Positions 5,935-10,514 of a DNA stretch of 47,954 bases are shown one piece after another. The DNA comes from an uncultured Spirochaetales bacterium. Its GTDB lineage: Bacteria > Spirochaetota > Spirochaetia > Sphaerochaetales > Sphaerochaetaceae. The notes under the pieces were generated by a model, which saw nothing but the letters and a program-made list of their open reading frames with translations, had not been told where the DNA came from and made no database searches. The stretch is from NCBI GenBank assembly GCA_949297785.1, contig CASFTW010000014.1, positions 1-47,954 on the forward strand, written 5' to 3'. The position numbers were made by a program, and so were the translations under genes. Each line of letters opens with the position of its first letter. The first letter of the stretch is position 1.

Positions 5935-6588
5935 ATGAAAGGAAAATTTCTGATATTATTGATTGTTTTGCTGACAGTATTTTCATTGTCAGGCTGCTCT
6001 GCAGGACATTTTGTCCCCGGGCAATATGTGATTGAAGAAAGCCGCGTGGATACAATCAACATTGATGTGCGTGACAGGCGGATCGATGTTACGGTGTCGG
6101 AAGATGATATGATTCACATTGAATATTTCACAAGTGAAGAGGAAACTTACGGTATTTCTGTTTCCGATTCCGGAGTTCTGACAATGAAAAGCGTCTACAA
6201 TAAAGACTGGATGGATTATATTGGCAGTGTAAAACCTTCAAAGGGAAACAGAGTGATATCAGTACGTATTCCGGAATGTGTACTGTCATCACTTGATATT
6301 TCCACAACGAACGAAACAATATCTGTTAATAACATTTCCGTATCAGATACTCTGAGCCTTCATTCAAATGGCGGTGATGTGCGCTTTTCTGACATTTCAG
6401 TTGGAAGAGAAGCCAATCTGAAAACTAAAAACGGAGATATAAGGGGATACATTGTTGATGACTATGAAAATTTCACTATCAACTGTGATGTGAAGAAAGG
6501 TGACAGCAATATCGGAGACCGCAAAGGAGGGGTGAAAACACTGAATATATCATGTAACAATGGTGATGTGAGTATTGATTTTATTTGA
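5935..6588 (+). CDS. DUF4097-type beta-helical lipoprotein
   Basis: A 217-residue secreted lipoprotein. The signal peptide runs to the lipobox 'LSGC' with Cys21. The rest is a repetitive beta-strand region ('INIDVRDRRIDVTVS', 'LDISTTNETISVNNIS', 'LKTKNGDIRGYIV', 'LNISCNNGDVSI') typical of DUF4097 (putative adhesin-like) proteins, which often sit with envelope-stress or ABC-exporter genes. GGAGA lies 6 nt before the ATG. It is the last gene of the MerR-controlled operon and is followed by a terminator. Its biochemical role is unknown. Confidence 0.78.
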   Translation: MKGKFLILLIVLLTVFSLSGCSAGHFVPGQYVIEESRVDTINIDVRDRRIDVTVSEDDMIHIEYFTSEEETYGISVSDSGVLTMKSVYNKDWMDYIGSVKPSKGNRVISVRIPECVLSSLDISTTNETISVNNISVSDTLSLHSNGGDVRFSDISVGREANLKTKNGDIRGYIVDDYENFTINCDVKKGDSNIGDRKGGVKTLNISCNNGDVSIDFI

Positions 6589-6718: not shown

Positions 6719-7510
6719 ATGAAGACATTTGCAGTTGCCGGATGCGGTCATCTTGGAAAGATTGTGCAGAAGGCATATATAAACGGTTTGCTGAAGGATT
6801 ATAAGCTTGTTGCGGCATATTCACGTGAACTAGAGGATGCCGAAGAGCTTGTGAAGGGAACGGAAGCAGTTGCTGCGGCTTCAATGGATGAGGTGATTTC
6901 CCTCAAGCCGGATTATATCATAGAAACAGCTTCAATTGCGCTGCTGAAGGATTTTGCACTTGATGCACTGGAGAACGGAATCAGCATCATACCGCTTTCA
7001 ATCGGAGCATTTGCCGATGCTGCTTTCAAGGCTGAGACTCTTGCCTGTGCAGAAAGAACCGGTGCGAAGATATATATTCCTTCAGGCGCTGTCGGCGGAT
7101 TTGATGTGCTCAGGACAATTGCCCTGATTGCTGAAGCAGAGGGTAGTGCTGTCAAAGCCGGCATACATACTCACAAAGGGCCAAATTCCCTTAAAAATAC
7201 GCCGTTGTATGAGGACGGACTGCAGGAAAAAGAGAAGACAGTGTTCTCCGGCTCCACAAGCGAGGCGATCGGACTTCTTCCGACAAAGGTCAATGTAGCT
7301 GTTGCATCAGCCTTGGCCACCATCGGCCCTGATAACGCAAAGGCTGAAATAACAAGCGTTCCGGAGTTTGTCGGAGATGATCACTGCATCACTGTGGAAA
7401 CAGACGGATTGAAGGCTGTTGTCGATATATATTCTGCAACCAGTGATATCGCGGCATGGTCAGTTGTGGCATTGATGAGGAATCTTTCTTCTTCAATGGT
7501 TTTCTTCTGA
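6719..7510 (+). CDS. L-aspartate dehydrogenase-like protein (NadX family)
   Basis: A 263-residue NAD(P)-dependent enzyme. It opens with a Rossmann motif, 'VAGCGHLGKIVQ', and carries the family blocks 'PSGAVGGFDVLRTIA', 'KAGIHTHKGPNSLKN' and 'TKVNVAVASALATIGPD', matching the Thermotoga TM1643-type aspartate dehydrogenases. These oxidise L-aspartate to iminoaspartate, for NAD synthesis or for aspartate breakdown. No nadA, nadB or nadC is nearby, so a catabolic or unrelated amino-acid substrate is possible. GGAGG lies 7 nt before the chosen ATG. An in-frame extension to 6575 has no ribosome site and crosses a terminator. The next gene follows after 10 bp. Confidence 0.82.
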   Translation: MKTFAVAGCGHLGKIVQKAYINGLLKDYKLVAAYSRELEDAEELVKGTEAVAAASMDEVISLKPDYIIETASIALLKDFALDALENGISIIPLSIGAFADAAFKAETLACAERTGAKIYIPSGAVGGFDVLRTIALIAEAEGSAVKAGIHTHKGPNSLKNTPLYEDGLQEKEKTVFSGSTSEAIGLLPTKVNVAVASALATIGPDNAKAEITSVPEFVGDDHCITVETDGLKAVVDIYSATSDIAAWSVVALMRNLSSSMVFF

Positions 7511-7520
7511 GGAGGACTTT

Positions 7521-8426
7521 ATGAATAAATTCAGGAAACTTGTCGAAGCCGGTCCGATCGGACTGCAGCCGTGGGCAGAAAAAGAGCTTGAAAATTATGC
7601 TGATGAGATAATACGCTATGAAACCCTTCCTGAAAGCGAGGATGAGCTTGTTGCCAGGATAGGGGATGCGGATGCTCTTCTTGTAAGGACTCTTCCTCTT
7701 GTCCCTGCTTCCGTGCTGACAAGATGCGGCAATCTCAAATATGTGGGTATGTGCTGTTCCCTTTATTCAAAGGAAAGCGCCAATGTCGATATCGGTTATG
7801 CGGAAAAGCACGGTATAACGGTCTACGGCATACGCGATTACGGTGACAGGGGTGTGACTGAGTTTGTAGTATATGCACTTGTGAGAATCCTTCACGGCTA
7901 TGACTGGCCGATGTGGAGATCAAGACCGAAAGAGATAACAGGACTTAAAATAGGATTTGTCGGTTTCGGTACAAGCGGACAGATGACTGCAAGACTGCTG
8001 AAGGCGATGGGTGCTGACATAAGCTACTATGCGCGTTCTGTCAAGGAAGAATGTGAGAAAGAGGGTATGCATTACCAGCCTCTTCATGAGCTTCTGAAAC
8101 AGTCGGAGGTTGTGATAACCTGCCTCAACAAAGGCGTGATCCTGCTTCATGAGGAGGAATTCAGATGCCTTGGAAACAGGAAGATAATGATCAATACTTC
8201 CATCGGGCCTGCTTCTGATATGGATGCATTGAAAAGCTGGATTCTCGATGACAGCAATATTTTCATTTCCGATACTGCAGGTGCCGTGGGCAGCATATAT
8301 GATGAAGTCAAAGACAGGGCAAATGTTCTGTGTCCTGATGTTTCTGCAGGCATGACGGAAGAAGCCTATGATCTGATGAGCCGTAAGGTTCTTGATAATA
8401 TAAAGAAAATGCTTTCTGAAAACTGA
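7521..8426 (+). CDS. D-2-hydroxyacid dehydrogenase homologue with altered catalytic site
   Basis: A 301-residue protein of the D-isomer-specific 2-hydroxyacid dehydrogenase family. The NAD fold is intact, with 'IGFVGFGTSG' (144-153) following the linker 'GLK', and the substrate-domain pattern 'NVDIGYAEKHGITV' is present. The three catalytic positions look replaced. The usual N-x-x-R-G block reads 'NTSIG' (Ile228 for Arg). The Glu-bearing strand reads 'DTAGAVG'. The usual P-H-x-x-G block reads 'PDVSAG' (Asp273 for His). It may bind NAD without the standard chemistry, or use a different reaction. It is co-transcribed with the aspartate dehydrogenase-like gene. Confidence 0.82.
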   Translation: MNKFRKLVEAGPIGLQPWAEKELENYADEIIRYETLPESEDELVARIGDADALLVRTLPLVPASVLTRCGNLKYVGMCCSLYSKESANVDIGYAEKHGITVYGIRDYGDRGVTEFVVYALVRILHGYDWPMWRSRPKEITGLKIGFVGFGTSGQMTARLLKAMGADISYYARSVKEECEKEGMHYQPLHELLKQSEVVITCLNKGVILLHEEEFRCLGNRKIMINTSIGPASDMDALKSWILDDSNIFISDTAGAVGSIYDEVKDRANVLCPDVSAGMTEEAYDLMSRKVLDNIKKMLSEN

Positions 8427-8581: not shown

Positions 8582-8591
8582 ACTCTTGTTT

Positions 8592-8665
8592 GTGGGAGTA
8601 GCGAAGCTGGTTATCGCGCTGGCCTGTCACGCCGGAGATCGCGGGTTCGAGCCCCGTCTCTCACG
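8592..8665 (+). tRNA. tRNA-Asp (GTC)
   Basis: A 74-nt cloverleaf. The acceptor GTGGGAG pairs with CTCTCAC (one G-T wobble), the D-stem GCGA with TCGC, the anticodon stem CTGGC with GCCGG around loop CTGTCAC (anticodon GTC), and the T-stem GCGGG with CCCGT around TTCGAGC. The discriminator is G, as expected for tRNA-Asp. The 3' CCA is not encoded. Confidence 0.97.
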
Positions 8666-8669
8666 TAAG

Positions 8670-8798: not shown

Positions 8799-10514
8799 AT
8801 GGGCAGACAGATCACCACCAGCAAGTTTTCTTTCGAACAGCTGATCATGAATGACTGGCTGTATGTCGATAAGACCGAATATGTGTGGAAGCTTGTCAAT
8901 AATCATGCCAGCACATTCTTTTTCTGTTCGCGTCCACGCCGGTTCGGAAAATCGCTTTTCATTTCAACTCTGGAAGCTGTATTCAAAGGCAGGAAGGAGC
9001 TGTTCAAGGATCTTTATATAGGAACTACGGAGTATTCTTTCAGACCTTATCCCGTACTGCATTTCGATTTTTCCGATCTCGATCTGACTTCGTATGGAGA
9101 TTTCAGGGAAAGTCTGCAGCAGCAGATACGGAATATTGCCATGGAGAATGGAGCCTGGGTGGATAATTCATCTCCGGGTACAATGCTGGATAATCTCCTG
9201 AAGGCTTTTGATGACAAAGTTGTGGTTCTGATAGATGAATTCGATGCACCTGTCACCAGAATACTTTCATATAAGGATGAAGATTCTCTTGCTGAGAAGA
9301 TACGTCAGACATTTTCTTCATTTTATTCAAAGCTGAAATCAAATGAGGATCGCATACGTTTCCTTTTCATCACCGGTGTGACGAAACTTTCCAATATGTC
9401 GATTTTCAGCCAGATGAATAACCTGACAGATATATCGATGGATCAGGGATTTGCAGGAGCATTCGGTTATACGCAGAAAGAACTTGAGGAAAACTTTGAT
9501 GACGCTATAAATGAAAAGCTTGCATCAGATGAATGTCCGTATCATTCAAGGCGGGAGTTTCTCGCAGCTCTGAGAAGCTATTACGACGGATACCGTTTTT
9601 CAAATTGCGGTGCATCATCTTTTATTGATATAGAGAAAGCAACTGCGGATGAAGTCCATGAAATTGAGGAAATTTACGGAAATTCAAACAGGATTCCAAG
9701 TGTTTACAATCCTGTTTCCATCGGTATGTATTTTTCTCAGGGAAATCCTGCATTCATGAATTTCTGGGACTGGACGGGAGTATCAACACTTGCGGTTGAA
9801 CTTGCAAAGAGCGTGAATCTGCTTGATATAGTTGAAGAGAATGCTTCTGTATCCATTTCCGCCTTTACATCTTTCGATGTCTCTTCCATTGCATCTGGAT
9901 CTGTTTCCAGATCTGCTGTTCTTGCTCTGCTGTATTATACCGGCTATCTTACACAGGACGGTGTAAGCACAGGGCCTGTCACTCTCAGGTTTCCGGATAT
10001 TGAGGTTGCCAGTTCATTCACAGGTTCACTTGTGACCCGGTATTCTTTATCAGGGAATGACATTCAAACTGTAATCGATTTTGCACGCAATGCCTTGAAA
10101 GACGGAAGGACAGAGGACTTCATTCACCAGATGAAAGTCTATCTTTCAAATTTCAGCTACGAGCTTCTCGATAAGGACAGGGAAAGACAGTACCAGCTGC
10201 TGTTTCTTTCACTGTGTGTTGCATCAGGATTGAGGGTTGAGGGAGAAAAACATACTGACAGAGGACGCATTGATGTCCTGATAGAATCTCCACATCATAT
10301 TTATATCATCGAGATGAAATTTGAAGATACAGCAGACTGTGCACTTTCACAGATTTCAGACAGAAAATACCATTACCGCTTCCTGAATGATGCCGCCAGC
10401 CGTAATAAGACGGTTCATCTTCTGGGAATCAGTTTCTCATGTTCTGAAAGGAACATCAGGGAGTGGAAAGAAAAAATCATAATATCAGAGAATGTTGCAG
10501 ACTATATGAAGTAA
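8799..10514 (+). CDS. AAA-ATPase with C-terminal PD-(D/E)XK nuclease-like domain (first copy)
   Basis: A 571-residue protein of the PF09820 plus PF08011 type common in Bacteroidetes and spirochaetes. The N-terminus has 'LYVDKT' and an unusual P-loop, RPRRFGKS (45-52), that is normal for this family; Walker B is 'VVVLIDEFDAP' (141-151). The C-terminal nuclease-like core reads 'GRIDVLIE' then 'YIIEMKF' (D...ExK). The function of the family is not established; roles in DNA handling, mobile DNA or defence have been guessed. It starts 134 bp after tRNA-Asp, with AAGGAGGG ahead of the ATG. A distant paralogue lies at 46031, also behind a tRNA. Confidence 0.9.
   Translation: MGRQITTSKFSFEQLIMNDWLYVDKTEYVWKLVNNHASTFFFCSRPRRFGKSLFISTLEAVFKGRKELFKDLYIGTTEYSFRPYPVLHFDFSDLDLTSYGDFRESLQQQIRNIAMENGAWVDNSSPGTMLDNLLKAFDDKVVVLIDEFDAPVTRILSYKDEDSLAEKIRQTFSSFYSKLKSNEDRIRFLFITGVTKLSNMSIFSQMNNLTDISMDQGFAGAFGYTQKELEENFDDAINEKLASDECPYHSRREFLAALRSYYDGYRFSNCGASSFIDIEKATADEVHEIEEIYGNSNRIPSVYNPVSIGMYFSQGNPAFMNFWDWTGVSTLAVELAKSVNLLDIVEENASVSISAFTSFDVSSIASGSVSRSAVLALLYYTGYLTQDGVSTGPVTLRFPDIEVASSFTGSLVTRYSLSGNDIQTVIDFARNALKDGRTEDFIHQMKVYLSNFSYELLDKDRERQYQLLFLSLCVASGLRVEGEKHTDRGRIDVLIESPHHIYIIEMKFEDTADCALSQISDRKYHYRFLNDAASRNKTVHLLGISFSCSERNIREWKEKIIISENVADYMK

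Follow-up and report, generated by a model that had tools for sequence, protein, structure and literature searches.

The gene at positions 7521..8426 (+ strand) of the window (the whole 47,954-nucleotide stretch of spirochaete DNA analysed here) encodes a 301-amino-acid variant 2-hydroxyacid dehydrogenase, hereafter HADH*, that belongs to a conserved, apparently undescribed subfamily of the D-2-hydroxyacid dehydrogenases (2HADHs) whose active site has been rebuilt. The 2HADHs are a standard example of a family with a single conserved catalytic triad. A cross-phylum clade in which the Arg, Glu and His of that triad and the substrate-binding Gly have been replaced together, and in which a new loop is nearly fixed, offers a clean natural example of an old fold with a rebuilt active site. 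Searches of the open-access full text of PubMed Central found no account of the subfamily, of the gene pair that it forms with its neighbour, of its motif or of a 2HADH pseudoenzyme.

The open reading frame is intact, and its translation matches PF02826 (E = 6.9e-17, 61.8 bits) and PF00389 (E = 4.6e-15, 55.9 bits), both above cut-off. An AlphaFold2 model built with 60 sequences reached a mean pLDDT of 95.2 and a pTM of 0.88; Foldseek paired it best with 1wwk (E = 2.6e-19), and among the matches listed by VIA-align (n = 50) 2HADH-fold proteins scored Z 25.3–27.5 over 279–288 residues. HADH* thus combines both Pfam domains with the two-domain Rossmann fold of the superfamily, and we regard the predicted assignment to a genuine 2HADH fold as solid because the Pfam domains, the high-confidence model and the structural matches are all 2HADH. 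None of the named NCBIfam 2HADH equivalogs (SerA, GhrB, PdxB, VanH, PRK08410 and others) reached its cut-off for HADH*, the best being PRK08410.1 (67.2 versus 389 bits).

More than 90% of 2HADHs share Gly73, Arg230, Glu259 and His277, and an Asn three residues upstream fixes the catalytic Arg (PMC6303947). The Arg site of HADH* is I228 (8202..8204, +), an assignment that is certain, as INTSRGP of 1wwk pairs with INTSIGP of HADH* without a gap and the joint alignment agrees; the structural Asn is retained as N225 (83/83 rows), and I228 is invariant in 40/40 orthologues of the window's spirochaete family. The Glu site is V256 (8286..8288, +) and the His site is V274 (8340..8342, +), both located in a joint alignment of 82 subfamily proteins with 2HADHs that a Pfam search recovered from spirochaete, Bacillota and Bacteroidota genomes. 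The original prediction that the fold is kept and all three catalytic residues are gone, with Ile228 at the Arg position and a strand lacking the Glu, is borne out by these positions and by the model, and the joint alignment, which could have restored a canonical Arg, Glu and His, restores none. Its placement of the His position at Asp273 was one residue off: D273 adjoins the site and replaces the Pro of the canonical 'TPH'. D273 was also rejected as a substitute for that His, given that the alignment puts the His at V274 and that position 273 is Asp in only 40/82 rows.

The replacements hold across the subfamily. Final counts compared 85 subfamily rows (81 distinct sequences) with 60 canonical rows; L078, cut by a contig end, was left out of the 82-row sets and L192, with no match, out of the canonical set, and three sequences fetched as canonical (L196, L203 and L204, from the genomes of L110, L095 and L087) were taken as the same genes again and counted with the subfamily. 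Arg occupies its site in 0/85 subfamily rows versus 60/60 canonical rows, Glu in 0/85 versus 56/60, and His in 1/85 (L088) versus 58/60, the other two canonical rows having Lys. The full Arg-Glu-His set is present in 56 of the 60 canonical rows, and the remaining four all retain the Arg. The subfamily residues at the three sites are mostly hydrophobic. In 29 of the 85 subfamily rows a Glu occurs no more than three columns from the Glu site, at no fixed position, and the strand has no conserved acidic residue. Arg is the most conserved active-site residue of 2HADHs, and a 2018 survey of 22 subfamilies reports triad substitutions in single cases only (PMC6303947).

The substrate-binding region is rebuilt as well. 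Residues 76–91 (GMCCSLYSKESANVDI; 7746..7793, +) form a loop in which, by the joint alignment, the canonical Gly is replaced by L81 and four residues (K84–A87) are inserted. The Gly site is Leu in 85/85 subfamily rows versus Gly in 59/60 canonical rows, so that HADH* lacks the conserved Gly that gives its backbone amide to the substrate carboxylate. Among 16-residue windows of the protein, entropy is lowest in this loop, with 10/16 positions invariant versus 33/285 elsewhere (p = 5.5e-6), a figure inflated by the choice of 80 loci, the best 80 of 209, with two loop patterns, one of which contained GMCC. Rows found without the patterns (family genomes, L133/L134 and L206–L210) retain GMCC(S/T)L and SANVD. 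Within the loop, Cys79 is conserved in 83/83 rows and Cys78 in 82/83; Cys201 and Cys271 are each found in 76/83. A four-cysteine metal site was considered and rejected, as several rows have lost one of C201 and C271 without the other. C201-L-N-K204 (8121..8132, +) is a shortened loop in place of the canonical 'LHxP' stretch, and the His of that stretch falls in an alignment gap in the subfamily. Position 204 is always basic (Lys in 76/83, Arg in 7/83), and H125 is His in 83/83 subfamily rows. As a guess from these alignments, K204 might replace Arg as the binder of the substrate carboxylate.

The cofactor site, by comparison of the same rows, is preserved. The GxGxxG nucleotide-binding motif (residues 148–153; 7962..7979, +) has G148, G150 and G153 each in 83/83 rows, and it is followed by R172-x-x-K175 (8034..8045, +), an NADP-type motif with both residues in 83/83. 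The cofactor loop of the subfamily mostly reads A-R-S-x-K; [ST]R[ST]X[RK] in this loop is the NADP(H) fingerprint of GHRA enzymes (PMC6303947). HADH* therefore likely binds NADP(H), and the earlier description of an intact NAD-binding loop stands as to the loop and needs amending as to the cofactor, the signature being of the NADP(H) type and not the NAD type.

HADH* occurs in 40 of 139 genomes of the window's spirochaete family, the window's own included, at 68–100% identity; two further weak matches (G077 and G080) fall among the canonical 2HADHs in the tree. A loop-pattern scan of the genome collection gave 209 relatives, and the best 80 that were kept come from Spirochaetota, Bacillota (Lachnospiraceae, Faecalibacterium and Hungatella), Bacteroidota (Prevotellaceae, Flavobacterium and Sphingobacterium) and one Acholeplasmatales (Mycoplasmatota) MAG. 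The subfamily is rare: it was found in 15/392 genomes of the window's phylum, in 6/299 genomes drawn around Hungatella (Hungatella counted) and in 1/296 drawn around Flavobacterium, namely Flavobacterium itself. A tree of 36 subfamily and 60 canonical rows unites the former in one clade with 100/100 support on a stem of 2.95 changes per column, so the family tree called for at the outset does show that the substitutions define a conserved subfamily. The spirochaete rows nest with Lachnospiraceae, which suggests transfer. The reading frame is open in 40/40 family orthologues (one row ends at a contig end) and dN/dS is about 0.04–0.12 for pairs with usable dS; the subfamily is under purifying selection. 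Because the triad pattern defines one 100/100 clade and dN/dS is low, the pattern is more than chance. The label '2-hydroxyacid dehydrogenase' is probably a mis-annotation for these proteins in gut bacteria, for example in Faecalibacterium, Hungatella, Prevotella relatives and Treponema ruminis.

A pattern-free search brought in an ordinary member, L206, as well as a sister clade, L207–L209 plus the broken L210 (from genomes G751, G573, G612 and G726, for L207–L210), which joins the subfamily at 100/100. Its triad sites read Leu/Met/Lys. The sister clade keeps the loop as GMCC(S/T)LID..SANVD, together with R172/K175 and the basic residue at 204, and differs from the subfamily between the GMCC(S/T)L and SANVD stretches and at position 125 (His, Gln or Lys). 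From this alignment, the Arg is therefore absent in both branches, and the His site is Lys in the sister clade and mostly hydrophobic in the subfamily; the Lys-bearing clade may represent a stepping stone toward the rebuilt site. L210 is split over two frames, reflecting a broken gene or an assembly error. In L208 and L209, the start overlaps the end of a gene of about 550 amino acids, which we take to encode an M20-type (RocB-like) peptidase.

Directly upstream of HADH* lies a gene for a 263-amino-acid protein of the aspartate-dehydrogenase (NadX) family (6719..7510, +), assigned through PF03447, PF01958 and its model and referred to here as the partner. Its start, ATG 6719, was picked from the alignment; the mechanical open reading frame begins at TTG 6575. 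The partner has the Asp_DH_C domain (PF01958, 50.7 bits) and the corresponding fold, the model matching the L-aspartate dehydrogenases 2dc1 (Z 28.5) and 1j5p (Z 26.1) ahead of the next family (Z 17.4). The residue aligned with the 'NIHEI' His of 2dc1, which we take to be the catalytic His, is His in 62/66 rows. The partner has the fold and this catalytic-type His in common with NadX (2dc1 and 1j5p), and differs in that all NCBIfam NadX models score below cut-off (PRK13304, the best, 146.2 versus 267 bits; TIGR03855, 132.5 versus 206.55) and in that the window's genome has no NadA. Of 12 genomes searched for NadA, 7 have none, that of the window among them; NAD synthesis is therefore not the general reason for the presence of the partner, and a NadX of NAD biosynthesis was rejected as its identity.

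A ribosome-binding-site-like hexamer, AGGAGG (7510..7515, +), overlaps the partner stop codon and ends 5 bases before the HADH* ATG; the two genes are likely translationally coupled, and the gap between them is 8–14 bases in the spirochaete pairs. By tblastn neighbour calls, the partner adjoins HADH* in 66/82 loci; it precedes HADH* in tandem, follows it in tandem (L110) or is convergent with it. The convergent pairs (L111, L112, L115, L119 and L134), several from Bacteroidota and one from a genome of the window's class (G461), overlap at their 3' ends by 14–33 bases. Sixteen loci have no adjoining partner; in 4 of these genomes the partner lies elsewhere and 12 genomes, some of them incomplete MAGs, have none. 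Among the 139 family genomes, 38 have both genes, 2 have HADH* alone, 6 have the partner alone and 93 have neither, an association inflated by shared ancestry. Five partner-only genomes read by eye had no other 2HADH beside the partner in place of HADH*, and the partner gene was absent from the sister-clade genomes (0/4). In a Firmicutes MAG (L104), the partner is truncated (7531-7980) next to an intact HADH*. G037 has two HADH*–partner pairs (contigs C8 and C73) at 6% contamination, and is probably a mixed bin.

HADH* has the two-domain fold, GxGxxG and the Asn before the Arg site in common with canonical 2HADHs, namely SerA type IIIH (1wwk, also its best phmmer match) and glyoxylate reductase (5aov/6bii), and differs from them in the replaced Arg, Glu, His and Gly, the four-residue insertion in the substrate loop and the shorter 'LHxP' loop. 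Partial losses of the triad are known. SerA type IIIK has Lys for His and no Glu, and is active with its Arg retained (PMC6303947). HADH* resembles it in lacking His and Glu, and the sister clade resembles it in the Lys at the His site, but neither has the combination of a kept Arg with Lys that characterizes type IIIK: HADH* has I228 and the hydrophobic V274, and the sister clade has Leu for the Arg. In the archaeal subfamily X4, His is changed to Trp and Glu is lost in only about half of the members (PMC6303947); X4 is like HADH* in losing part of the triad and in its NADP-type loop, whereas HADH* loses Arg, Glu, His and Gly throughout.

The loss of these four residues leaves no polarising group and no proton relay, making ordinary 2-keto-acid reduction by the known 2HADH mechanism unlikely. 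With its remodelled pocket conserved in several phyla and the partner usually next to it, HADH* probably serves another function. A precedent for other chemistry on the fold is Bsp5, an acyclic imino acid reductase of the 2HADH fold (PMC11876095). Its structure (6p2i) shares the fold of the HADH* model (Z 27.5, r.m.s.d. 2.5, 282 residues aligned), in a top rank tied with other 2HADHs, and its sequence places it with ordinary 2HADHs (1.2e-45 to a canonical member); for both reasons it serves as a precedent for the capacity of the fold and not for kinship. Bsp5 is said, after Guo et al. 2019, to work with an imine-producing partner. That partner is an oxidase, whereas the recurrent neighbour of HADH* is the aspartate-dehydrogenase-family gene, and no constant oxidase was seen among the clustered HADH* neighbours.

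We tentatively propose, as the likeliest of the readings although it falls short of being probable, that HADH* is an NADP(H)-binding protein whose rebuilt substrate site carries out NADPH-linked chemistry on a C=N compound supplied by the partner; cofactor binding, catalysis, substrate and direction are all things that we infer. In this scheme, the partner would convert an L-amino acid, aspartate or one like it, to the 2-imino acid and back. I228, V256 and V274 would line a hydrophobic site in which HADH* binds this imine or a closely related C=N compound, and a hydride would pass between that compound and NADP(H). The C=N chemistry is proposed because a 2-imino acid is what the family of the partner produces and because Bsp5 provides an example of an imino acid reductase on the 2HADH fold. 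A protonated imine would need neither a carbonyl-polarising Arg nor a His-Glu proton relay, and the triad could for that reason be lost with the cofactor site kept. Going by the usual stereochemistry of the 2HADH fold, the product would be a D-amino acid, and the HADH*–partner pair could form a redox-neutral L/D converter. The narrower version, in which two dehydrogenases sharing one NADP(H) pool act as a stereo-inverter, the partner turning the L-form into the imino acid and HADH* reducing this to the D-form (or the reverse), strikes us as improbable; if true, it would yield a D-amino acid by a route that needs neither PLP nor an oxidase. Counting against the pair mechanism are the 12/82 loci in partner-less genomes, the sister clade without the partner in 4/4 and the lack of a constant pathway beyond the pair, and the substrate-carboxylate-binding Arg that HADH* has lost counts against the C=N reading itself.

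The main rival, which we judge rather unlikely, is that HADH* is a pseudoenzyme that serves the partner as a regulatory subunit and senses NADP(H), comparable to the 2HADH-fold corepressor CtBP. Every acid-base residue is gone and the NADP motif is kept in 83/83 rows, in close linkage to a partner that retains its own catalytic-type His, and CTBP_ARATH is described as having no catalytic residues (PMC6303947). A sensor would fit less well with a substrate loop that is the most conserved window of the protein (a conservation biased upward by the loop patterns), or with HADH* occurring without the partner in the genomes of 12/82 loci and in the sister clade, and the convergent Bacteroidota genes are awkward for co-translated subunits. 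A new reaction or a sensing role, as originally suggested, was a fair either/or, and the data do not decide between the two; that suggestion had overlooked the aspartate-dehydrogenase-family neighbour, the missing Gly with the loop insertion and the NADP-type motif. We favour a ligand-binding, probably catalytic role, because the loop is the most conserved part (partly through pattern selection) and the partner-less sister clade has the Lys.

Two other catalytic readings compete with the C=N proposal. HADH* could be an ordinary 2-keto-acid reductase in which K204, H125 or residues of the other subunit take the roles of Arg and His; we consider this unlikely. It would account for the invariant H125 and the K/R at position 204 (83/83 each), and the Lys at the His site of the sister clade recalls the active lysine-type SerA (PMC6303947), but H125 is Gln or Lys in some sister-clade members, the carboxylate-binding Gly is lost too (85/85), and the residue to be replaced is the one most conserved in 2HADH active sites (PMC6303947). 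Less likely still is another new NADP-linked reaction, for example through a Cys79 thiol adduct of an aldehyde or through formate-dehydrogenase-like hydride transfer without proton transfer, formate oxidation being the only 2HADH reaction of that kind (PMC6303947). The invariant Cys79, the near-invariant Cys78 and the common Cys201 and Cys271 speak for it; GMCC, however, was part of the search pattern, so its invariance is partly imposed, the separate losses of Cys201 and Cys271 tell against a joint metal site, and the gene neighbourhoods offer no pathway context suggesting an aldehyde. That HADH* is a decaying or mis-sequenced gene without function is hardly credible: all catalytic residues are lost and some distant copies are broken (L210), but open frames in all 40 family orthologues and low dN/dS rule out a pseudogene or frameshift, and the replacements are shared across phyla within one clade.

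The wider neighbourhood varies. A LarAH10-like nickel racemase relative, a class I aminotransferase and an amino-acid ABC transporter lie near 6–8 of the 82 loci, nearly all of them spirochaete, with unrelated neighbours elsewhere, and a wider conserved operon was rejected on these counts; neither the LarAH10-like gene nor the aminotransferase reached an NCBIfam cut-off. At L120, tartrate-dehydrogenase and DapA-like genes lie upstream, and one neighbouring protein, with no NCBIfam match, presumably is an asparaginase II. Such neighbours hint at amino-acid and C4-acid metabolism around HADH*, though not constantly. In the window, a DUF4097 (Toastrack) lipoprotein-like gene (5935-6588) stands directly upstream of the pair, and downstream of HADH*, after about 165 bases, come a tRNA-Asp gene (anticodon gtc, 8591-8666) and then a gene for an AAA-ATPase_like/PDDEXK_9 protein (8799-10514).
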